NCBI GenBank assembly: GCA_020148145.1
Contig: JAHCRE010000009.1
Location: 1-32,656 of the forward strand
DNA: 32,656 bases
Origin: Patescibacteria group bacterium
GTDB taxonomy: Bacteria > Patescibacteriota > Minisyncoccia > Minisyncoccales > JAHCRE01
Reading direction: 5' to 3'
The position numbers and the translations under genes are program-made. Below the pieces are notes generated by a model. The model saw only the letters and a program-made list of their open reading frames with translations, was not told the DNA's origin and ran no database searches. This document shows, one piece after another, positions 1,746 to 32,656 of this stretch (positions are counted from its first letter, which is position 1; every line of letters starts with the position of its first letter).

Positions 1746-2681
1746 ATGGAAATCAACCCTTCGATGAAGCTCAGGGTTGGCGCTGAGCGAAGTCGAAGCA
1801 TCAAAAAAGCCGTTATCCCCATTGCTGGTTTAGGGACAAGATTTTTGCCCCTTTCTAAGGTTTTGCCAAAAGAACTCTGGCCCATAGTTGATAAACCAGT
1901 CATTCAATATATTGTTGAAGAAGCAAAGGCCTCGGGAATTTCCGAGATGATTTTTGTAATTTCACCTGAAAAAAAGGTTGTCCACGATTATTTTAAAAAA
2001 TACTATTTTAGAAAATCACCAAAATTAGAAAAAAATTTAAAAGGAAAAAATAAAACTTCTTTCCTACAAGAATTAAAGAAATTGGAAGAACTTTACCAAG
2101 GCATTTCCTGTTCTTATCTTTATCAAAGAAAACCTTTAGGCGATGGTCATGCTGTTTTACTAACAAAAAAATTAGTAATGGACGAACCTTTTGCTGTTTT
2201 ATGGGGAGATGATGTTGTTGATTCTAAAATTCCTTGTCTTTTACAAATAGTCAAAGTTTTCAAAACCTGCCAAAAACCTGTAATTTCTCTACACCGAGTA
2301 GCCAAAGAAAGAATTCCATCTTATGGAATCGTTAAAACTGAAAAAATCGCTAACCGTCTTTATAAAATTAAAAAAATAGTGGAAAAACCCTCGTTAGAGT
2401 CTGCCCCTTCTGATTTAGCTATTGTTGGGAAGTATATCCTAACTCCCGAAGTTTTCGATTATCTTGAAAAAGCCAGACCTTCCAAATCAGGCGAAATAAT
2501 TTTAGCTGAAGTTTTGGATAAGATGATAAAAGATGGTAAAATAATTTATGGCTATGAATTTAAAGGAAGATGGCTGGAATGTGGGAATAAACTCAATTGG
2601 CTTAAATCTCATCTTTATTTATCCTTTAAACATCCAGAATTTGGTCCAAGACTTAAAAATTTTTTAAAAGAATTAGAATAA
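1746..2681 (+). CDS. galU: UTP-glucose-1-phosphate uridylyltransferase with N-terminal in-frame insertion
   Basis: Nucleotidyltransferase that makes UDP-glucose from UTP and glucose-1-phosphate for cell-envelope sugars. The nucleotide-binding signature GLGTRFLPLSKVLPKE lies at residues 28-43. Downstream are the GDGHA motif, a WGDDVVD metal-site motif and the EKPS segment, all in family order; the 311-residue length fits. Homologues normally begin a few residues before the strand KKAVIPIAG. Here residues 4-19 are encoded by a small palindromic element (1757-1799) flanked by ATCAA direct repeats, adding exactly 16 codons. Without it the start would read Met-Glu-Ile-Lys-Lys. No other in-frame ATG restores a canonical start, so 1746 is kept. 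Confidence 0.92.
   Translation: MEINPSMKLRVGAERSRSIKKAVIPIAGLGTRFLPLSKVLPKELWPIVDKPVIQYIVEEAKASGISEMIFVISPEKKVVHDYFKKYYFRKSPKLEKNLKGKNKTSFLQELKKLEELYQGISCSYLYQRKPLGDGHAVLLTKKLVMDEPFAVLWGDDVVDSKIPCLLQIVKVFKTCQKPVISLHRVAKERIPSYGIVKTEKIANRLYKIKKIVEKPSLESAPSDLAIVGKYILTPEVFDYLEKARPSKSGEIILAEVLDKMIKDGKIIYGYEFKGRWLECGNKLNWLKSHLYLSFKHPEFGPRLKNFLKELE
1752..1804. mobile_element. 43-bp palindromic element with 5-bp direct repeats inside galU
   Basis: Direct repeats ATCAA (1752-1756 and 1800-1804) bound 43 bp whose ends are imperfect inverted repeats: CTTCGATGAAGCTCAG against CTGAGCGAAGTCGAAG. Element plus one repeat is 48 bp (16 codons), so the frame is kept. A related GAGCAAAGCGAAG string occurs between tRNA-Thr and the rpiB-like gene. 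Confidence 0.7.
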
Positions 2682-3734: not shown

Positions 3735-4496
3735 ATGTTTCCTTTAAAAGATAAAGTAGCCATTATTACTGGAGCTCGTCGGGGCATGGGTCGATCTCAT
3801 GCCTTAGTACTAGCTAAGGCTGGAGCTAAAGTAGTAGTTTCTGATGTCAGTCAAGAAGATTGTGAGAAGGTAGTTAAAGAAATTAAAAAAGAAAAGGGAG
3901 AGGCAATAGCTATAAAGTGCAACGTTACTAAAAAGGACGAGATTGATGCGATGGTTAAAAAAACTATTGAGAAGTGGGGGAAAATCGATATTTTGGTTAA
4001 CAATGCTGGTATTTGTGATTTTAAACCCTTTTTAGAGATGACTGGGGAAGATTGGGATAGAACTTTAAACATTAATCTTAAAGGATATTTTTTATGTGCC
4101 CAGGCTTGTGCAAAAGAAATGGTAAAGCAAAAATCAGGATCAATTATCAATATTGCTTCTGTGGCTATGGGTCAGACAGGCGTTGGCTTTCCTAACCTCG
4201 TTCATTATTGTGCTTCCAAAGGAGGAATCGTGGGGATGACTGAGGCCATGGCTTTGGAGTTAGCCCTCTATAATATTCGAGTTAATGCTATTTCGCCAGG
4301 GATGATTGATACGCCAATGATAGAGTCAGCTAAGCAAGACCCAAAAATGATGGAAGCCTCCTTAGCTCGAGTCCCAATGCACAGAATAGGTAAACCAGAA
4401 GAGGTTTCTAATATGGTTTTGTTTTTGGCTTCTGACGCTTCCTCTTATATGACCGGAACCGATGTGATAGTTGACGGAGGATGGCTAGCAGGGTAA
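3735..4496 (+). CDS. classical short-chain dehydrogenase/reductase (SDR)
   Basis: Rossmann-fold oxidoreductase of the classical SDR family, 253 residues. The cofactor loop is TGARRGMG (12-19). Asp37 at the end of the second strand suggests NAD(H) over NADP(H). NNAG lies at 89-92, and the catalytic Ser142, Tyr158 and Lys162 (YxxxK) are all present, followed by the ISPG loop near 187. The C-terminus GTDVIVDGGW is typical of the FabG/glucose-dehydrogenase branch. The substrate cannot be read from sequence; a FabG-like 3-oxoacyl reductase or a sugar/alcohol dehydrogenase are both possible. It is the last gene before a terminator and probably shares a transcript with nnrD. Confidence 0.85.
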   Translation: MFPLKDKVAIITGARRGMGRSHALVLAKAGAKVVVSDVSQEDCEKVVKEIKKEKGEAIAIKCNVTKKDEIDAMVKKTIEKWGKIDILVNNAGICDFKPFLEMTGEDWDRTLNINLKGYFLCAQACAKEMVKQKSGSIINIASVAMGQTGVGFPNLVHYCASKGGIVGMTEAMALELALYNIRVNAISPGMIDTPMIESAKQDPKMMEASLARVPMHRIGKPEEVSNMVLFLASDASSYMTGTDVIVDGGWLAG

Positions 4497-9651: not shown

Positions 9652-10671
9652 ATGCCAAAAATTGTTATTAATGGTTTTGGTCGTATCGGTCGGCCAACAT
9701 TTAAAAGAATTTTAAAAAATCATCCTGATTTGGATTTAGTGGCAATCAATGATTTAACTGATACCGGAACCTTAACCCATTTGTTAAAATACGATTCTGT
9801 ATACGGAATTTATGAAAGGCCGATTAAATCTACCAAAGATAGTCTTTTAATTGAGGGAACCTATAATGGGAAAAAAGTAAAAGCCTTGGCTGAGCCAGAC
9901 CCAGGAAAATTACCCTGGAAAGAATTGGGAATAGATATTGTTTTAGAATGCACTGGTAGGTTCACTGATTTTCCGGATGCTAAAAAGCATATTTTAGCTG
10001 GGGCAAAAAAAGTAATAATCTCTGCTCCTTCAAAAAGCTCAGAAGTTAAAACTTTTGTCCTGGGAGTAAATGAAGAAGAATATGATTCCAAAAAAGATAA
10101 TGTAATTTCTATGGGCTCTTGTACAACAAATTGTTTAGCTCCAATAATTAAGGTTTTAGATGATAATTTTGGAATAGTTTCTGGTTTTATGACAACTATT
10201 CATTCTTATACCACTAACCAAAGAATCTTAGATTTACCTCATAAAGATTTACGCCGGACTAGGGCAGCTGCTTTAAATATTATTCCTACAACTACCGGAG
10301 CAGCCAGGGCCATTGGAAAAGTAATCCCGAAATTGGAAGGAAAACTGAATGGTATTGCCATGCGGGTTCCTACTCCTACTGTTTCAGTTTTAGACTTAAT
10401 TTGTATCTTGGAGAAAAAAGTGACGGCTGAGGAAATAAATTATACCTTTAAAAAGGCCTCACAGGAAAAAAGATTTGAGGGGATTTTGGGAGTGGAAGAT
10501 ACTCCTTTAGTTTCTTCAGATTATATTGGAAATTCTTTTTCAGCAATTTTAGATGCTCCCTTAACTTTGGCTAAAGATAATTTAGTTAAAGTCGTTGCCT
10601 GGTATGATAACGAATGGGCTTACGCATGTAGACTCGCGGAATTCGCCGAATATATTGGAAAGAAGCTTTAA
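9652..10671 (+). CDS. gap: type I glyceraldehyde-3-phosphate dehydrogenase
   Basis: Interconverts glyceraldehyde-3-phosphate and 1,3-bisphosphoglycerate. NAD-binding motif NGFGRIGR starts at residue 7, Asp34 after the second strand points to NAD, the catalytic segment is SCTTNC (Cys157), and His184 lies in TTIHSYT. Length (339) and C-terminal WYDNEWAYACRLAEFAEYIGKKL order are normal for the bacterial type I enzyme. The last ~20 codons are repeated in diverged form at 10860-10922 after a GC-rich insert, and the natural-looking terminator follows that second copy. The current 3' end may thus have been replaced or duplicated while the protein sequence was preserved. It is the last gene of the redoxin-gap unit. 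Confidence 0.95.
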   Translation: MPKIVINGFGRIGRPTFKRILKNHPDLDLVAINDLTDTGTLTHLLKYDSVYGIYERPIKSTKDSLLIEGTYNGKKVKALAEPDPGKLPWKELGIDIVLECTGRFTDFPDAKKHILAGAKKVIISAPSKSSEVKTFVLGVNEEEYDSKKDNVISMGSCTTNCLAPIIKVLDDNFGIVSGFMTTIHSYTTNQRILDLPHKDLRRTRAAALNIIPTTTGAARAIGKVIPKLEGKLNGIAMRVPTPTVSVLDLICILEKKVTAEEINYTFKKASQEKRFEGILGVEDTPLVSSDYIGNSFSAILDAPLTLAKDNLVKVVAWYDNEWAYACRLAEFAEYIGKKL

Positions 10672-10859
10672 TATTTAATTAGCACAATAGATAAGGGTAG
10701 CGTAGGACCATTCGGAGAAAGGGGTCGGGAAAACTGAGTGTTTTCCCGTGTAGGAAAACAGGGAGGCCGAAAGGCCGACCGCCAGAAACCGAGAGGTGTC
10801 TGGGGAGCGGAGCGAAGTGAACGAAGTGAGCGCTCGAGCGAAGCGAGAGGGAGCGGATC
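10672..10859. mobile_element. GC-rich insert between the two copies of the gap 3' end
   Basis: This ~190-bp segment is GC-rich and full of short palindromes: GGGAAAAC..GTTTTCCC (10728-10746 region), GGCCGAAAGGCC (10766-10777) and repeated GAGCGAAG/GAACGAAG units around 10805-10850. No gene-like frame is present. It separates the functional gap 3' end from a diverged second copy. Confidence 0.6.
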
Positions 10860-10922
10860 GACGAATGGGCTTATGCTTGTAGATTAGCTGAGTTCGCCGA
10901 ATTCATTGGAAAGAAATTGTAA
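10860..10922 (+). pseudogene. duplicated 3' fragment of gap
   Basis: About 60 bp encode DEWAYACRLAEFAEFIGKKL and a TAA, nearly the same residues as the true gap C-terminus. Roughly a fifth of the bases differ, mostly at silent positions. The copy is AT-richer than the functional one and is followed directly by a terminator, which suggests it is the original gene end. Confidence 0.8.
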
Positions 10923-10936
10923 TTTGAAATCAGTCC

Positions 10937-10966
10937 AAATGGGCGGGGCTTCACCCCGCCCATTTT
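10937..10966 (+). terminator. strong hairpin terminator downstream of gap
   Basis: A 12-bp stem, AAATGGGCGGGG with CCCCGCCCATTT, and a five-base loop, followed by only a short T run. It lies just after the residual gap 3' copy. Confidence 0.75.
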
Positions 10967-15628: not shown

Positions 15629-16735
15629 ATGGCAAAAATTACTCTAAGTATAATAAAGGCTGATATTGGGAGTATTGGCGGACACGTAAAACCCAGTCAG
15701 AGACTTTTGGAAACAGTTGAAAATTTTATTAAAGAAAAAGGCAAAGGCAAAATTCTCGATTATTATGTCGGTCATACTGGAGATGATATTGCTATTTTAT
15801 CAACTCATAAAAAAGGAGTTTTAAATCCGAAAATCCATAAACTCTGCTGGGATGCTTTTGTAGCTGGTACCAAAATTGCCAAAAAGCAGGGTCTATATGG
15901 AGCAGGTCAAGATTTATTAAAGACAGCTTTTTCTGGAAATGTTAAAGGAATGGGGCCAGCCGTGGCTGAATTGGAAATTGCTGAGCGACCGGCTGAGCCT
16001 TTTCTTTTCTTTGCCGCTGATAAAACTAATGCCGGAGCATTTAGTTTACCTTTATATTTAACTTTTGCTGATCCAATGTATACTCCTGGCTTTATGCTCT
16101 CTCGGGTTATAAAAAAGGGGTTTAGGTTCACGATTATGGATGTTTCTTATACAAAAGCTAATAAGATTATTGAATTAAATGCACCCGAAGAAATTTATGA
16201 TATTGCTGTTCTTTTAAGGGACCCTGAAAGATTTGTAATAGAGAGCATTTTCTCAAGGGCTACTGGTGAGCAGGTGGCTTCAGTGAGTACTACCAGACTT
16301 AGGAATATTGCCGGTAGATATGTTGGAAAAGATGATCCGGTAATGTTAGTTAGGGCCCAGAAAAATTTTCCAGCTACCGGAGAAATCCTTTCCCCTTATG
16401 CTATTTCACCTTATGTTCCAGGTTTCATGAGAGGAAGCCATGTAGGTCCTTTGATGCCGGTAAAGAAAAATTCTCCAGTTTCTTTTTTCGATGGCCCACC
16501 AGTAGTTTCTTGTTTAGCCTTTTCTGTTAAAAATGGGAAATTAACAGAACCCGCTGATGCCTTCGACCAACCTTTCTGGGATTATGTCAGAAAAAAGGTT
16601 GCTAAAAAGGCTGAGGAAATTAGAAGGCAAGGATTTTATGGAGCAGCTATGTTGCCCTATTCCGAATTGGAATACGGAGGGATAGTTGAAACCTTAAAGA
16701 AATTAGAAAAAAGATTTGTTATTCGAAAAAAATAA
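15629..16735 (+). CDS. fbp: archaeal-type fructose-1,6-bisphosphate aldolase/phosphatase
   Basis: Bifunctional class V enzyme that joins triose phosphates into fructose-1,6-bisphosphate and dephosphorylates it to fructose-6-phosphate, making gluconeogenesis unidirectional. The protein is collinear with the family: TLSIIKADIGSIGGH at the N-terminus with metal-binding Asp, GHTGDDI, the long conserved GNVKGMGPAVAELE block, ADKTNAGAFSLPLYLTFADP, and the PYVPGFMRGSHVGPLMPV and FDGPP segments; 368 residues. The family is known mainly from Archaea and deep-branching, often thermophilic bacteria. A TATAAT-like motif near 15567 may drive it. The membrane-protein gene downstream starts one base after its stop codon. 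Confidence 0.92.
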   Translation: MAKITLSIIKADIGSIGGHVKPSQRLLETVENFIKEKGKGKILDYYVGHTGDDIAILSTHKKGVLNPKIHKLCWDAFVAGTKIAKKQGLYGAGQDLLKTAFSGNVKGMGPAVAELEIAERPAEPFLFFAADKTNAGAFSLPLYLTFADPMYTPGFMLSRVIKKGFRFTIMDVSYTKANKIIELNAPEEIYDIAVLLRDPERFVIESIFSRATGEQVASVSTTRLRNIAGRYVGKDDPVMLVRAQKNFPATGEILSPYAISPYVPGFMRGSHVGPLMPVKKNSPVSFFDGPPVVSCLAFSVKNGKLTEPADAFDQPFWDYVRKKVAKKAEEIRRQGFYGAAMLPYSELEYGGIVETLKKLEKRFVIRKK

Positions 16736-16736
16736 T

Positions 16737-17630
16737 ATGAATAAAAAAATTTTAGTTGTTTTAATTATCTTAATTGTCTTGATTATTGGCTGGTTAGTCT
16801 GGAAGTATCAAATCTCAGGGAATGTTTTAATCACTACTGATAAAACAGAATATGAACAAAAAGAGACTTTAAGAGTGAAAATTAAAAACAATTTCAGAAA
16901 AAATGTCTGTTTTTCCTCTTGTTACCCTTATTATTTAGAGAGAAAGACTGAAGAATGGAAATCTTATCTTTATGGAGATTGCCAAAAAAAAGATTTGATC
17001 GAGACCTGCGTTAACCCAGGTGAAGTTAAGGCATTTGAAATTACTTTATCTCCAGTGGAAGCGGGTCTCCACCGAATTGCTATACCAATCTGCTCAGATT
17101 GCAAAACTGGAGAAGAATTTAAAGAAAGTAGAAAATTTTATTCCAATGAATTCACGATTAAAGAGAAAGACGAAACCGCCAATTGGAAGACTTATAGGAA
17201 TGAGGAGTATGGGTTTGAGATAAAGTATCCAGATGATTGGCATATACACGAGGTAGAAGACGGATATATTGGGATAGTAGACACCGAGGAAAAGGTTTTC
17301 CCACAAATGGTTTTTCAGAAAAGTAATTGGATGGGAGTTACAATTATTTATTATTCGAAACCAACTGATTTTACTTGGGAAGAATGGCTAAGGAAAAGAG
17401 ATATAGTAGGATATGAAAAATCTACTGAGAGGGGCTTAGAGGTAATAAAGATTACAGAAAGAACTGGTATTTTCCCTGGTGAGGTATTCTTTGGTAACGA
17501 AAAGAAAATATACGGTCTTGATTATATGAGTGAATATTTTAATGAGGATGGTTCTATTAATAGAGAAAAAGAGCAAGAATGTCTAAATATTTTCAATCAA
17601 ATGCTTTCTACTTTTAGGCTTTTAGAGTAA
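16737..17630 (+). CDS. membrane-anchored two-domain protein (Ig-like plus PsbP-like)
   Basis: Start chosen at the ATG one base after the fbp stop; it places Asn-Lys-Lys directly before the membrane helix. One N-terminal helix (~5-22) anchors it. Domain 1 (~25-140) has a beta-rich GNVLITTDKTEYE segment with four to six Cys, including CFSSC and CSDC, likely disulfide-bonded outside the membrane. Domain 2 (~148-295) begins with WKTYRNEEYGFEIKYPDDW, typical of PsbP-like/DUF lipoprotein domains. Domain 1 is duplicated in the next gene. Function is unknown; extracytoplasmic binding is a guess. Conserved Cys pairs suit the thioredoxin-fold protein encoded upstream. Confidence 0.75.
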   Translation: MNKKILVVLIILIVLIIGWLVWKYQISGNVLITTDKTEYEQKETLRVKIKNNFRKNVCFSSCYPYYLERKTEEWKSYLYGDCQKKDLIETCVNPGEVKAFEITLSPVEAGLHRIAIPICSDCKTGEEFKESRKFYSNEFTIKEKDETANWKTYRNEEYGFEIKYPDDWHIHEVEDGYIGIVDTEEKVFPQMVFQKSNWMGVTIIYYSKPTDFTWEEWLRKRDIVGYEKSTERGLEVIKITERTGIFPGEVFFGNEKKIYGLDYMSEYFNEDGSINREKEQECLNIFNQMLSTFRLLE

Positions 17631-17636
17631 AGAAAC

Positions 17637-18074
17637 ATGAGAACAGAAACAAAAATCATAATCGGGCTTTTGGTGATTGCGATTTCGATTAGTGGTTTTT
17701 TGATTTGGTTGACTTATCAAGTTTCTGGGAATGTTCTGGTCACTACTGATAAAACAGAATATGAAAAAGGCGAGGTTTTGAAAGTGAAAATCCAAAACAA
17801 TTTCAGAAAAAATGTCTGTTTTTCTTCTTGTTACCCTTATTTATTGGAAAGGAAAAATGAAAAATGGGAAAGCTACAAATATGCTGAATGTTATGACCTT
17901 GATTCGAATGGAAAATGTATCTCTCCGGGACAGATTAAAGCCTTTGAATTAACTTTACCTCAAGTTCCAGGCGGTCTTCATAGATTAGCTATTCCTGTTT
18001 GTATAGGTTGTAAAGGTGAAGATACTTTTAAAGAAAGTAAAAGGTTTTATTCAAACGAATTTATAATTAAATAA
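17637..18074 (+). CDS. single-domain tandem paralogue of the preceding membrane protein
   Basis: 145 residues: an N-terminal membrane helix (~8-25) and one Cys-containing beta domain. It is about 70% identical by eye to domain 1 of the previous protein (shared FRKNVCFSSCYPY and SNEF near the end), but it lacks the PsbP-like second domain. It starts six bases after its paralogue, so it is a tandem duplication within one operon, with domain loss or gain. CFSSC and CIGCK Cys pairs are conserved. Function unknown. Confidence 0.78.
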   Translation: MRTETKIIIGLLVIAISISGFLIWLTYQVSGNVLVTTDKTEYEKGEVLKVKIQNNFRKNVCFSSCYPYLLERKNEKWESYKYAECYDLDSNGKCISPGQIKAFELTLPQVPGGLHRLAIPVCIGCKGEDTFKESKRFYSNEFIIK

Positions 18075-25902: not shown

Positions 25903-25913
25903 AAAAAATATTT

Positions 25914-27421
<1,508 letters not shown>

Positions 27422-27565
27422 AATTTTTAGTGCCGACTATAGTTGAAGTCTGGAATTCGGATTTTAACCATAGGGTATTGATCGAACATCCTAAAGATCG
27501 ATCTTTCCTTCTTCGCTCCTTTGTGGAGCTTCGAAGGATCCACCGTAGCCCTTGGCAAAGGTGGA

Positions 27566-27586
27566 CGAGGCAACTCTAAGAAACTG
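27566..27586 (+). other. 3' arm of the pre-16S processing stem
   Basis: CGAGGCAACTCTAA and flanking bases pair with 25882-25902. The trailer between the 16S end and this arm (27422-27565) contains further hairpins, such as GCTCC..GGAGC, but no gene. Confidence 0.85.
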
Positions 27587-27615
27587 AAAAAAAACGGCTT
27601 TGGCCGATTTTTTTT
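27587..27615 (+). terminator. 16S transcript terminator
   Basis: CGGC-TTTG-GCCG hairpin (27595-27606) with an A-run before and eight T residues after, immediately behind the processing stem. The transcript appears to end here, before any other gene. Confidence 0.75.
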
Positions 27616-27617
27616 GC

Positions 27618-27645
27618 TTGATTTTTAATTTCCATTTGCTAAAAT
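27618..27645 (+). promoter_or_regulatory. promoter for the ybaK-like gene
   Basis: TTGATT (27618-27623), 16 bp, TAAAAT (27640-27645), with the same ATTTGC before the -10 as the 23S promoter. A palindrome (GGACGGGAGTT / AACTCTCGCGTCC, 27659-27697) lies between it and the gene; nothing else is seen up to 27736. Confidence 0.6.
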
Positions 27646-27736
27646 ATTACTGTGGTCTAGGACGGGAGTTTCCGCAGGGCTAAGAACTCTCGCGTCCCAA
27701 CCAAAATTGTTTTATAATCTGGAAAAAGATATAAAT

Positions 27737-28243
27737 ATGCCAATTTCAAAAAAATTACTCAAATTTTTAGAGAAAGCTAAAATTAAATATGAGAAAATTC
27801 TTCACAGGACAGTTTATACTGCCTATGATAAAGCTCAAACCTTAAAAGTTCCCGAGAAAATCGTTGGAAAAACCTTAGTAATGAAATTTGATAGAGATCC
27901 AGCCGTTATCTTGATTCCAGCGAATAAAAATCTTGATAAAGGAAAATTTAAAAAATTGGTTAACAAGTTTCTTAAAAAAGCGGATAAAAAACCAGTAAAA
28001 AAAATTAATTTTGTAACCGAAAGATGGATGAAGAAAAATCTCAAGGGAGTAAAGGTTGGAGCAATTCCTCCTTTCGGAAGTTTATGGCAAATGCAAACTT
28101 TTATTGATAAATCTTTTTTAAAAAATCCAAAAATTATTTTAAATGCCGGAGATTATAATTGGTCTATAAAGATTACACCAAAATCCTTTAAAAAATTAAT
28201 ACCTGATTTAATAACTGGAAATATTAGTAAGAAAAGAAAATGA
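27737..28243 (+). CDS. YbaK/ProX-type aminoacyl-tRNA editing deacylase
   Basis: Predicted trans-editing enzyme that hydrolyses mischarged aminoacyl-tRNA. The ATG at 27737 (MPISKKLLKF) is preferred over an upstream TTG, because the latter overlaps a TATAAT box. The YbaK fold is recognisable from HRTVYTAYDKAQTLKVP, the conserved Lys in GKTLVMK, GAIPPFGS and the late NAGDYNWSIKI; 168 residues. Amino-acid specificity is not readable. It sits between the 16S unit and tRNA-Ile/tRNA-Ala, and the methyltransferase gene starts seven bases later. Confidence 0.82.
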   Translation: MPISKKLLKFLEKAKIKYEKILHRTVYTAYDKAQTLKVPEKIVGKTLVMKFDRDPAVILIPANKNLDKGKFKKLVNKFLKKADKKPVKKINFVTERWMKKNLKGVKVGAIPPFGSLWQMQTFIDKSFLKNPKIILNAGDYNWSIKITPKSFKKLIPDLITGNISKKRK

Positions 28244-28250
28244 AATTTCG

Positions 28251-28817
28251 ATGTATTATCGAATTTTCTCTAAAATTTATGAAATGGGAGCAAAAAAGAT
28301 GTGCAAGGATTGTGAAGATTTTATTGAAAAGGGCTCGAAAATTCTTGATTTAGGATGTGGATCAGGAATAGTAGCTAAAAATTTTCGAGATTTTTTCAAA
28401 GCAGAGATTATTGGGGTGGATATTAAAGATAATAGAGTGCTTGATATCCCTTTTAAAATTATCGATGGGAAAAATCTCCCCTTTAATGACCATTTTTTCG
28501 ATATAGTTTTGATAAGTTATGTTTTGCATCACTCCCGGGATCCAGAAAGACTATTAAAAGAAGCAAAAAGAGTTTCCAAAAAACTTATCATTTACGAGGA
28601 TTTACCAGAAGGAATTCTCTCGAAATTGAGATGTCGGCTTCATCAAATTACTTTTTTTGGAGGAGAAAGAAAAAAATTCCATTTTAAGACAAAAGATGAA
28701 TGGAAGAAAATTTTCAAGAAACTTGGCCTTAAAATTATTGAAAAAAAGCGGGTTTTTTCCCCATTTGATTGGATTGACCCAGTAAAGAGATTCCTCTTTG
28801 TTTTAGAAGCAACTTAA
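28251..28817 (+). CDS. class I SAM-dependent methyltransferase
   Basis: 188 residues with the SAM-binding motif ILDLGCGSG (32-40), an acidic residue at the end of the second strand (GVDIKDN), a PFNDHFFDIVLISYVLHH motif IV/V region typical of the UbiE/Methyltransf_11 group, and a C-terminal region with TKDEWKKIFKKLGL. The substrate is unknown; small molecule or lipid is more likely than rRNA from the domain type alone. It is probably co-transcribed with the deacylase gene. The downstream tRNA-Ile begins seven bases after the stop. Confidence 0.83.
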   Translation: MYYRIFSKIYEMGAKKMCKDCEDFIEKGSKILDLGCGSGIVAKNFRDFFKAEIIGVDIKDNRVLDIPFKIIDGKNLPFNDHFFDIVLISYVLHHSRDPERLLKEAKRVSKKLIIYEDLPEGILSKLRCRLHQITFFGGERKKFHFKTKDEWKKIFKKLGLKIIEKKRVFSPFDWIDPVKRFLFVLEAT

Positions 28818-28824
28818 ACATTAT

Positions 28825-28899
28825 GGGCACGTAGTTCAATGGTAGAACATCTTTCTGATAAAAAGAAGGTCGTAGGTTCGATTCCTTCCGTGCCCACCA
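28825..28899 (+). tRNA. tRNA-Ile (anticodon GAT)
   Basis: Acceptor GGGCACG pairs with CGTGCCC. The anticodon stem TCTTT/AAAGA encloses CTGATAA. The 3' CCA is encoded. One base separates it from tRNA-Ala. Confidence 0.93.
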
Positions 28900-28900
28900 A

Positions 28901-28972
28901 GGGCCTGTAGTTTAGTGGTAGAATACCTCATTTGCAATGAGGAGATCGCGGGTTCGACTCCCGCCGGGTCCA
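28901..28972 (+). tRNA. tRNA-Ala (anticodon TGC)
   Basis: Acceptor GGGCCTG pairs with CGGGTCC with two G-U wobbles. The anticodon stem CCTCA/TGAGG encloses TTTGCAA. T-arm GCGGGTTCGACTCCCGC. CCA is not encoded. Confidence 0.92.
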
Positions 28973-29027
28973 TTAATTAGAGGAGGGTAAAAGTTTTCCA
29001 CAGGGACGATTTTCTTTATTTTTGCTA

Positions 29028-29036
29028 TGCTATAAT
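29028..29036 (+). promoter_or_regulatory. extended -10 promoter for the MscS-TM-like gene
   Basis: TGC-TATAAT (TG at 29028-29029, TATAAT 29031-29036), 62 bp before the ATG. The -35 is weak. Confidence 0.55.
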
Positions 29037-29098
29037 AAAATAATTCCTTAAATTTTAAAGGTCGAGAAGTTTCTAAAAATAGATTTTAAAATTATATA

Positions 29099-29779
29099 AT
29101 GGTTCAAGATTTGTATACGATAACTTATCAGGCTTTGCTGGATCTCTGGAAAGGGGTTTTGTCATTTATTCCCAATCTTTTGGCAGCTATCGTAGTTTTA
29201 ATCATCGGCTGGTTGATTGCTGAGGCAATTGGAAGATTAATAGCTAGAATTTTGATTCAGTTGAGACTTAATAAGCTTTTTGAAAAAGCTGATTGGAGAG
29301 AGGCCTTAGAAAAAGCAGATATAAAGGTAAATCCGGCCGAATTTATTGGAGCAATTTGCAAATGGATTTTAGTTATTGTTGTCTTATCGATTACAGTGGA
29401 GATTTTAGGTCTTAAAACGTTTGCCATATTGTTAAATGAGTTAGTTGCTTGGCTTCCTAATTTAGTTGTTGCTATTGTTATTTTTGTGGTGGCTGTAATT
29501 GTGGCTGATCTTTTAAATAAGATCATCAGGGCAAGCGTAAAAAAGATTGGGGTAAAATATGCTGGATTTTTAGGGATGGCTGTTCGCTGGGCAATTTATA
29601 TTTTTGCCGGACTGGCGATTTTACTTCAGTTAGGAGTTGCTCCAAGCCTTATCAATGCTTTGGTAATGAGTTTTCTTGGAATGATTGCTTTGGCTTTGGG
29701 ATTGGCCTTTGGTCTGGGCGGAAAAGAGGCGGCGGCAAGGTTGATAGAGGATTTAAGAGAAAAAATTTCTGAGCAATAA
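29099..29779 (+). CDS. MscS-TM-helix family membrane protein
   Basis: 226 residues, about five membrane helices (near 24-46, 86-104, 117-139, 160-178, 185-205). Conserved small-residue helices end with ALGLAFGLGGKEAAARLIEDLREK, the signature of the conserved TM-helix repeat seen in MscS-related proteins. The beta and alpha/beta cytoplasmic domains of true MscS channels are missing, so channel activity is uncertain. It has its own promoter and lies between tRNA-Ala and the 23S promoter, in what would be the 16S-23S spacer of a classical operon. Confidence 0.8.
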   Translation: MVQDLYTITYQALLDLWKGVLSFIPNLLAAIVVLIIGWLIAEAIGRLIARILIQLRLNKLFEKADWREALEKADIKVNPAEFIGAICKWILVIVVLSITVEILGLKTFAILLNELVAWLPNLVVAIVIFVVAVIVADLLNKIIRASVKKIGVKYAGFLGMAVRWAIYIFAGLAILLQLGVAPSLINALVMSFLGMIALALGLAFGLGGKEAAARLIEDLREKISEQ

Positions 29780-29916
29780 TTTTTTTCATAAATACCTTTA
29801 GGAAAGGGTGGCAGTAAAACCGAGGCAAATATTTGCCGAGGGTGAGCGCCATGGAGGGAAAACCTTGGTTTTCCCTATGGGGAGCCGAGCACCGAAGGTG
29901 CGAGGCGACTAAGGCC
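29780..29916. repeat. GC-rich palindromic element upstream of the 23S promoter
   Basis: Between the membrane protein gene and the 23S promoter lie GGCAAATATTTGCC (29824-29837), a long hairpin AGGGAAAACC/GGTTTTCCCT extended by CCAT/ATGG (29851-29880 region), and GCACCGAAGGTGC (29889-29901). No gene is visible. Confidence 0.6.
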
Positions 29917-29944
29917 TTGACAACTGTTTTTGATTTGCTAAAAT
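29917..29944 (+). promoter_or_regulatory. 23S rRNA promoter
   Basis: TTGACA (29917-29922), 16 bp, TAAAAT (29939-29944), the same boxes and spacing as the 16S promoter, with a similar T-rich spacer. Confidence 0.85.
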
Positions 29945-29985
29945 AAAAAGTAGTATGGAAAGAAAAAATTCCATTTTGAATAAAG

Positions 29986-30051
29986 GAAGTGGTTAAAATC
30001 TTCGAATTTTACATATTCGAAAGTTTTAAAACCGCTTCTCAAAGCGGTTTT
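29986..30051 (+). promoter_or_regulatory. 23S leader with two mutually exclusive hairpins
   Basis: GAAGTGGTT (29986-29994) can pair with AACCGCTTC (30030-30038), extended by a TTCGAA/TTCGAA inner stem. Alternatively AAAACCGCTT (30028-30037) pairs with AAGCGGTTTT (30042-30051), ten pairs. The layout parallels the 16S leader. Confidence 0.55.
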
Positions 30052-30109
30052 CACTTTAAAAAGAGTTCATTGAAAAATAAATAATTGGTGGTTATTAATT
30101 GCTAGCCAA

Positions 30110-32656
30110 GAATTGCATTTTAAGGGCGGATGGTGGATGCCTTGGGATATCGAGGCGATGAAGGACGTGGCGTGACTGCGATAAGCCTCGGGAAGGTGTC
30201 TAGCAACCTTTGATCCGGGGATTTCCGAATAGGGAAACCTGTTTCGACGATGAGTCGAAACAGTCCGGTCGAATGACCGGACGGCTAACCCGCTGAAGTG
30301 AAACATCTCAGTAAGCGGAGGAAAAGAAAACAATTCTAGCTTTTTAGCTTGTAGCTTTTTAGCTTGTTATTTTTCTTTTAATATTGCTAAGAAGCTAATT
30401 TCCTAATAAGCTAATAAGCTAGGTCATTCCCTTAGTAGCGGCGAGCGAAGAGGGAAAAGCCCAAACTCCATTAGATATGAAAATTATCTAACGGGGGGTT
30501 GTAAGAAAATATTGTCGGGGGCATTTCTGGTGCACAGGAATGTTCTTGAGGGAGAGCACTTAGGTAAGGTCTCGTTAGTTGAATGACCCTGGAAAGGGCA
30601 ACCAAAGAGGGTAAAAGTCCCGTAAATGAAAACGACTTTACGCTCCTTGATATTTCTCTTGAGTACCATCGGGAACGAACGCCCGGTGGGAAGCAGGCCG
30701 GACTACCGGCCAAGGCTAAATACTCGATATCACCGATAGTGAACCAGTACCGTGAGGGAAAGGTGAAAAGTAGCCCGGTAAGGGCGGTGAAATAGAACCT
30801 GAAACCATCTCGCTCACAAGGAGTCGGAGCCCCTTCCTTTCGATCGAAAGGAAGGGGTGACGGCGTGCCTATTGAAGAAGGAGCCAACGAGTTTATCTAT
30901 TTCCTTAGTCTAAGGGCTTTCGGCCTGGAGGCAAAGGGAAACCAAGTGTTAAAAGCGCGAGAAGGGGATAGATAAGACCCGAAGCCAAGCGAGCTTGCCA
31001 TGGCCAGGGTGAACCTCAGAGAAATCTGAGGGGAGGCCCGAACCCGTGGATCGTGCAATATCCTGGGATGAGCTGTGGTAAGGAGTGAAAAGCTAATCGA
31101 GCTTGGTAATAGCTGGTTCTCCCCGAAATAGCTTTAGGGCTAGCGCCCGTTCAAATTTCCAGGGGTAGAGCACTGGAAAGAATATCGTGGGATTTTCTCA
31201 GGTATTCTTACTAAACTCCGAATACTGGAAACTTTTGGCGGGTAGTCAGACTGTGGGGGCTAAGCTCCATAGTCAAAAGGGAAACAGCCCAGATCTTCAT
31301 CTAAGGTCCCAAAATTTAAGCTAAGTGGTAAAGGAAGTGGGATTCCTTTGATAGTTAGGAGGTGAGCTTAGAGGCAGCTATCCTTTAAAAAGTGCGTAAT
31401 AGCTTACTAACTAAGGAGTTCTGCGCCGAAAATTCAACGGGGCTAAAGCTTAGTACCGAAGATAAGGACGCCATGAGTTTTTCTCAATGGCGTGGTAGGG
31501 GAGCGTCCCTCATCTAGTGAAGGTAAGCCGTGAGGCTTGCTGGAAGGTGGGGGAGTGAAAATGTTGGCATGAGTAACCGCAATCAGGGTGAAAACCCCTG
31601 ACACCGAAAGCCTAAGGTTTCCTTGGCAATGACAATCAACCAAGGGTTAGGCGGGCCTAAGGCGAATCCGAAAGGAGTAACCGATGGACAGCCGGTTAAT
31701 ATTCCGGCCCTCGCGCATCATTTTCAGACGATAACGAAGGTTAGTAGTTTGGGTGGTTTATTGGATTACCATTTATATCCTAAGGAGAAATCCAAGGGAA
31801 ATGAGAAGTCAGAACTTCGGTTCTGGCAACTCAAATGAGCAGCCTTCCCAGAAAAGTCGTTTGAAAGTTAAATGGTGGGCGATCCGTACCGCAAACCGAC
31901 ACAGGTAGGCAGGCATAAGAGTGCTAAGGTGAACGGGTGAAACCTCGTTAAGGAACTCGGCAAAAAAGCAGGCGTAACTTCGGGAAATGCCTTGCCGCGT
32001 CTAACGCGGCCGCAGCGAAAGTACCCCTGGCGACTGTTTATCAAAAACACAGGTCCCTGCTCAACTCGTAAGAGGATGTATAGGGGCTGAGGCCTGACCA
32101 GTGCTGGAACGTTAATCTCGCCGGTCTCGCGATTTATCGTGGGGCTGAGTGGGTGAAGCGCCAGTAAACGTCCGCGGTAACTATAACCGTGTTAAAGTAG
32201 CGTAACCCCTTGTCAGGTAAGTTCTGACCCGCATGAAAGGTTTAACGACTGGGGGACTGTCTCAACGAGGTGCCCGGTGAAAATGCAATGAGGGTGAAGA
32301 CGCCCTGTACCTGCGGCTAGACGGAAAGACCCCGGGAGCTTTACTGTAGTCAGGTATTGAATTTTGGTTTTAGATGCGTAGCGTAGGTGGGAGACTTTGA
32401 AATCCGCCTTTTGGGGCGGATGGAGTCGCCGATGAAACACCACCCTTTTAAAGCCTTGGTTCTAACCCGCCGTAGAGCGGAAACAGTGCCTGACGGTCAG
32501 TTTGAGTGGGGCGCTCGCCTCCCAAAAGGTAACGGAGGCGCTTAAAGGTCGGCTAACCAAGGATGGAAATCTTGGTGGTCGGACAAAGCCATAAGCCGGC
32601 TTTACTGCAAGAGGGATATCTCGCGCAGTTGGGAAACCAGAACTTAGTGAACCGAC
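30110..32656 (+). rRNA. rrl: 23S ribosomal RNA, 5' part (truncated by the window end)
   Basis: Conserved domains follow in order from GGTGGATGCC (30132) to a segment matching E. coli around 2390 at the window end, so the peptidyl-transferase ring and any 5S gene are outside. The 5' end is an estimate. Landmarks include AGTAGCGGCGAGCGAA, GTACCGTGAGGGAAAGGTGAAAAG, GATCGTGCAATATCCTGG-like domain II and AGACGGAAAGACCCCGGGAGCTTTACTG. An AT-rich ~90-nt insertion interrupts domain I at 30334-30424. A perfect palindromic stem fills the helix 25 position (30830-30857). Confidence 0.96.
30334..30424 (+). other. AT-rich hairpin insertion in 23S domain I
   Basis: It lies between GGAAAAGAAAACAA and ATTCCCTTAGTAGCGGCG, which are nearly adjacent in E. 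coli. The left arm is a perfect tandem of TAGCTTTTTAGCTTG (30337-30351, 30352-30366). The right arm has TAATAAGC twice and ends with AAGCTAG; the arms are complementary (CTAGCTT / AAGCTAG). Confidence 0.75.

Follow-up and report, generated by a model that had tools for sequence, protein, structure and literature searches.

How did galU come to carry a palindrome between two direct repeats directly behind its start codon? The gene lies on a contig of a Patescibacteria group bacterium (JAHCRE010000009.1), of which the whole stretch analysed here, 32,656 nucleotides in length, is referred to as the window. In the preliminary description, a 43-bp palindrome bounded by 5-bp ATCAA repeats had been noticed at 1752-1804, and direct reading of the sequence confirmed this arrangement.

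Structure of the galU insert and its empty site

The galU coding sequence (1746-2681, forward strand) starts with ATG at 1746 and GAA, which are followed by ATCAA (1752-1756), CCCTTCGATGAAGCTCAGGGTTGGCGCTGAGCGAAGTCGAAGC (1757-1799), ATCAA (1800-1804) and AAAAAGCC. The normal GalU start, KKAVIPIAGLGTRF, comes after AAAAAGCC, 3' of the insert, and the galU flanks at the feet of the hairpins are ATCAACC and GGTTGGCG. Both ATCAA repeats are exact and exactly 5 bp long. The 43-bp palindrome is imperfect, its stem being interrupted; as DNA it folds at -11.6 kcal/mol (z = -3.4 versus shuffles), and it can also be read as two hairpins. Indeed, the insert consists of two inverted REP-like hairpins of the form CTGAG-loop-TCGAAG, with 8 nt between CTCAG and CTGAG. 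Read along the forward strand, a left outer tetranucleotide A (TCAA, 1753-1756, inside the left ATCAA) is followed by the dinucleotide NN (CC, 1757-1758), which pairs with GG at 1775-1776, and by the first hairpin, h1 (CTTCGATGAAGCTCAG, 1759-1774), which is the CTGAG...TCGAAG core in reverse orientation and is thus assigned to the minus strand. The 8-nt spacer GG-TTGG-CG (1775-1782) has in its middle A', the reverse complement of A, which is degenerate here (TTGG; TTGA expected). The second hairpin, h2, with the core CTGAGCGAAGTCGAAG (1783-1798), is followed by N'N' (CA, 1799-1800), whose partner CG at 1781-1782 is degenerate, and by the right outer tetranucleotide A (TCAA, 1801-1804, inside the right ATCAA at 1800-1804). 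Read in this way, the 5-bp repeat of galU is a 4-nt repeat, TCAA, plus one base of the element, the A of its CA end. The reading frame is open through the insert and gains 16 additional residues. In the resulting 311-aa protein, the TIGR01099 match starts at residue 19, and no solved GalU structure aligns with it upstream of residue 14-20; the insert is therefore an N-terminal addition outside the conserved fold.

The galU comparison covered 30 loci with galU matches, 29 of them from relatives. Most of these orthologues start with Met-x-Ile/Val-Lys, and the 16 extra residues are absent from all displayed orthologues. The closest relative available, G002, belongs to the same family (76% identity in galU) and keeps the order of an FtsZ-like gene, galU and a sugar-kinase-like gene. 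Its galU start is uninterrupted and reads ATG GAA ATT AAA AAA GCT, and that of L030 likewise reads ATG GAA ATT AAA. The empty site predicted earlier, ATG-GAA-ATC-AAA, is thus found in both with one synonymous T, and comparison with G002 bears out the proposed net gain of 48 bp, a multiple of three (1757-1804 or, equivalently, 1753-1800). Uninterrupted orthologues were also found for related inserts in two other genes. In rpoC, the orthologue without the insert reads GTA AGA ATT GAC GGT AAA (G714) and the one with it reads CGG ATT GAC A-[insert]-GG ATT GAC GGA AAA (G595). In pheT, the corresponding sequences are ACA ATT AAG AAA (G007) and AAA ATT AA-[insert]-C ATT AAA GAA (G022), from a more distant pair and with the site in a variable region; the remaining rpoC and pheT relatives are too variable at the site to inform on its empty state. 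At all three loci, the orthologue without the element has the tetranucleotide once. It is established that the galU locus carries a genuine insertion and that this comes with a short direct repeat.

Several other features of the window were recorded. Between galU and the next gene lies a GC-rich stretch of ~150 nt (2682-2835) in an AT-rich genome, unlike in G002, where the next gene follows galU almost directly. It matched no Rfam family and folded no better than shuffles; it is possibly a second insertion. The end of the glyceraldehyde-3-phosphate dehydrogenase gene (10610-10687) is repeated 251 bp downstream (10861-10938, 78% identity), where it is apparently the remnant of a second copy of the gene. 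A tandem duplication at 16716-18074 comprises two adjacent related genes with stretches at 83% and 71% identity and 909-bp spacing. In addition, the rRNA locus (25913-32656) is interrupted: the 16S (25913-27421) and 23S (from 30110, cut by the window end) genes are separated by ~2.7 kb, which hold tRNA-Ile, tRNA-Ala and three apparent protein genes (27707-28243, 28251-28817 and 29099-29779).

The hairpin family and the grammar of its dimers

The core CTGAGCGAAGTCGAAG occurs once in the window (~0.03 expected at up to 3 mismatches) and as a single exact copy in the whole 809-kb genome. A one-mismatch core in a putative arginyl-tRNA synthetase gene (L003), considered as a second copy in this genome, lacks hairpin arms and was taken as a chance match. 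Beyond this genome, 31 of the 196 genomes searched in its order carry the 16-mer (~0.06 chance matches expected), as do 66 of 381 genomes of the phylum, usually with 1-5 copies and with up to 21; the reversed-pattern control gave 0 matches in both sets. A set of 195 unique copies was drawn from the order and phylum genomes, from viral contigs and from other phyla. In 87-88% of them, the two bases next to the core on one side are complementary to the two on the other, against 37-39% for permuted partners. Pairing is weaker at the third base (47% versus 29%) and the fourth (34% versus 24%), with little beyond. The repeat unit is therefore the hairpin NN-CTGAG-loop-TCGAAG-N'N'. Copies consisting of a single hairpin also have complementary flanks, which differ by locus. 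Genomes with many copies carry their own version of the core, such as CGTCATC-CTGAGCGAAG...GATCTC in G316 and CCCGTCATG-CTGAG...CATCTC on a Hymenobacter plasmid, and these two versions fit the published description of CGTC-tagged REPs (PMC3733652). In G316, the CGTC-tagged single hairpin was also seen in a tandem array with a 68-bp period (L261, ~4195-4482).

The exact full galU element had no match in GTDB genome contigs, and a loosened search returned 7 loci, among them one in Omnitrophica, another phylum, that is nearly identical and likewise has ATCAA arms (L067). In viral contigs, single cores were present and close-spaced dimers were not found. A single core hairpin was further observed at the same place (~position 1501) in putative tRNA nucleotidyltransferase genes of two different families (L039 and L044), where the peptide LSEVEG follows DFTVNALA; the shared position may be either inherited or a repeated target.

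The search for dimers used a pattern in which nothing was fixed except the hairpin cores and the spacer length of 8 nt, and it covered 384 class genomes, 381 phylum genomes and the loci found earlier. This gave 25 distinct inverted dimers with an 8-nt spacer, 24 of them outside galU. Four have GC-rich spacers and no direct repeat, and the other 21 follow the arrangement A-NN-h1-N'N'-A'-NN-h2-N'N'-A, in nearly all of which A is TTAA, TTGA/TCAA or CTAA/TTAG. These 21 were chosen by spacer content, with galU added by hand as its spacer middle is TTGG instead of TTGA; for hairpins starting with ATTCG/GTTCG or ending in a base other than G, the flank was taken one position further outward. The left and right A are identical in 17 of 21 dimers, against 5.4 under permutation. 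The reverse complement of the spacer middle equals the left A in 16 (5.2 expected) and the right A in 18 (5.7 expected). Each of the three has p ~5e-5, under a permutation that takes loci as independent although some are related; the two L285 copies lie in tandem. At galU and L282 the direct repeat is kept though the spacer no longer matches, and at the best copies (L280, L053 and L067) the arms extend to 6-8 bp. Copies with flanking repeats, which the preliminary description had proposed to look for, thus exist only in other genomes, the genome with the galU insert being single-copy. The 5-bp target-site duplication suggested there holds as far as a real direct repeat is concerned; the repeated unit is 4 nt long, and at most loci A' lies in the spacer. 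Since A recurs inverted inside the element, and comes from a narrow set, the reading of the galU repeat as a plain target-site duplication is not established.

Counting one A, the net gain is 48 bp in 17 of the 25 dimers. Because this gain is also seen in copies without a long open frame, the length is largely intrinsic to the dimer, and it is frame-neutral. Besides galU, dimers were found in frame in pheT, rpoC, the dTMP kinase gene (tmk), topA, a glycosyltransferase gene and at least two unassigned ORFs. Those within genes are mostly read in the same frame, giving peptides like INPSTxLRVNAERSRSIK, and the tmk insert corresponds to a 14-residue gap in the alignment to solved dTMP kinases. Dimers were also seen at the same place just upstream of a putative gas-vesicle-like gene in two different families (L040 and L277). 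An insertion rather than slippage, as had been argued from galU itself, is upheld by the empty orthologue, the 48-bp gain and the dispersal of the family in unrelated genes; slippage was rejected because the inserted sequence is common to unrelated loci.

Origin of the insert

For galU, we give about even chances to the explanation that a non-autonomous REP-type double hairpin, mobilised in trans and guided by its spacer, was inserted at an existing TCAA; the tetranucleotide, at codons Ile3-Lys4, would have been there before the insertion, and the event would postdate the split from the sister genus. The dimer would move as a folded single strand, and A' in its spacer would recognise A by base pairing both at the target and at the end of the element. 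One copy of the direct repeat would then be the A of the target and the other the A that terminates the element itself, with no filled-in staggered cut. In IS200/IS605 elements, guide and cleavage sequences recognise each other by base pairing in single-strand transposition. By analogy, we infer that spacer-target pairing may act in dimer insertion, and such pairing would jointly account for the restricted set of A, the inverted internal copy and the apparent duplication. Against it, the match between A and A' could stem from constraints on the hairpin stems, and the galU spacer is degenerate (TTGG). Persistence inside genes might be explained if 48 bp with a stop-free frame are tolerable at permissive sites, with no known benefit. 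More tentatively, the dimers may form a class of tiny mobile double hairpins across Patescibacteria and in Omnitrophota, with a spacer complementary to the target tetranucleotide, a net gain of nearly always 48 bp and possibly machinery acting in trans. It is equally tentative that within such a class the spacer would serve as a built-in guide or be a copied record of the target, and that essential genes could be entered with the frame intact.

Also counting against the guided double-hairpin explanation, no mobiliser turned up. No PF01797 match, that is, no Y1 (RAYT-type) transposase, was found in this genome. Y1 genes are present in 6 of the 14 dimer- or core-bearing genomes tested and co-occur weakly with the single core across the phylum (45 of 66 versus 131 of 315, p = 1e-4, not corrected for phylogeny). 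A RAYT was rejected as local mobiliser, being absent from the genome itself and flanked elsewhere by unrelated hairpins. Beside the RAYT-type genes of related genomes (L288, L289, L290 and L291) there are perfect hairpins, and each genome has its own, such as ACTTGGTGAC-GCC-GTCACCAAGT, which occurs three times at L290; by their sequences they look like the REPs of those genes themselves, and they differ from the galU element.

If a DDE-type transposase had acted on a TTAA/TYRA-like target in a cut-and-paste, MITE-like event, a 4-bp staggered cut followed by fill-in would explain the exact direct repeats at 17 of 21 loci, their retention where the spacer is mismatched (galU and L282) and the single tetranucleotide at empty sites, with the spacer match merely reflecting the stems. 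However, the covariation of the spacer with the target as its reverse complement is left unexplained and no candidate transposase was identified, and we regard this event as unlikely. Somewhat less probable still is fold-back templating, in which a hairpin came first and template switching during repair or replication copied one flank into the spacer and then into the other flank, giving A, A' and A. The 6-8 bp arms at L280, L053 and L067 and the locus-variable complementary flanks of single-hairpin copies argue for it, but A is drawn from a small number of tetranucleotides, and at galU and rpoC the native gene is matched through A on either side, so that neither flank was overwritten.

Without any transposase, illegitimate recombination could have joined a short single-stranded hairpin fragment, from outside or from a fork, at 4-5 nt of microhomology, in keeping with the single copy and the lack of a Y1 transposase in the genome, the near-identical copy in another phylum (L067) and the small, low-copy family; yet a gain fixed at 48 bp and a grammar strictly kept at many loci imply that a definite unit was excised, which makes such a capture improbable. 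The genome is a draft of 26 contigs, so that an assembly artefact or chimera may be thought of, but we consider this most improbable given that independent assemblies show this anatomy at 24 further loci, that the frame is open and that the genome has no other copy to misassemble from.

Relation to known repeat families

REP dimers, REPINs and in-frame palindromic inserts are already known (PMC3733652, PMC3116915). In the open-licence papers searched we found no description of such elements in Patescibacteria/CPR, of the A-A'-A grammar or of a fixed 48-bp gain, and no paper on the sequence of the galU element or its peptide motifs. REP-like elements that lack a transposase have long been puzzling, and the A-h1-A'-h2-A grammar constrains how dimers insert. 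The frame-neutral 48 bp illustrate how a tiny mobile palindrome can introduce extra peptides into the conserved housekeeping proteins of minimal genomes. They also call for caution in the annotation of Patescibacteria, where a mobile element can be the source of a recurrent peptide like NPSTxLRVNAERSRSI or LSEVEG.

The CGTC-tagged REP superfamily comprises short hairpin units, mostly in inverted dimers, with no dedicated transposase and with occasional in-gene copies (Di Nocera et al. 2013, PMC3733652). The galU dimer resembles them in its short inverted hairpins, and some relatives of its core are CGTC-tagged (G316, the Hymenobacter plasmid). In contrast, it has no CGTC (or TGTC/CCTC) at the hairpin foot and a single copy per genome, and its 8-nt spacer and A-A'-A arms are absent from that description. 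As in REPs generally, a hairpin unit (20-40 bp) is common to dispersed copies, whereas the high copy number and extragenic location of REPs are not shared (one copy in 809 kb, 1-5 in most carriers). REPINs and BIMEs consist of two inverted REPs as a unit, foldable as one hairpin, for which movement as a single strand has been proposed (Bertels and Rainey 2011, PMC3116915; Nunvar et al. 2010, PMC2817692). The galU dimer shares the two inverted REPs and a short spacer (8 nt in 25 dimers), but its spacer is far shorter, its copy number is low, it is intragenic and has no GTAG tag, and there is no RAYT in the genome.

MITEs with a target-site duplication would have a locus-specific direct repeat of constant length that is single at the empty site. 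The dimers show a 4-nt repeat at 17 of 21 loci, present once at the three empty sites, but with few variants and coupled to the spacer. The dimers recall IS200/IS605 elements, as hairpin ends together with short targets recognised by base pairing would yield the arrangement seen, and they differ from these in having no transposase gene in or near the element. The double-hairpin elements of mitochondria, which are short, insert into genes and stay in the transcript, were reported without flanking duplications (PMC2800124); the likeness is one of form, and the dimers are bacterial rather than organellar and have flanking repeats. RPE-4 and RPE-6 of Rickettsia, counted as CGTC REPs, are palindromic inserts found in frame in functional genes (PMC3733652). 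By description, the galU, rpoC and pheT inserts are like them in being in-frame palindromic inserts in conserved genes, and unlike them in host group, fixed 48-bp gain and A-A'-A arms. We file the galU dimer with REP, REPIN and RPE-like elements, as a probable variant of them.
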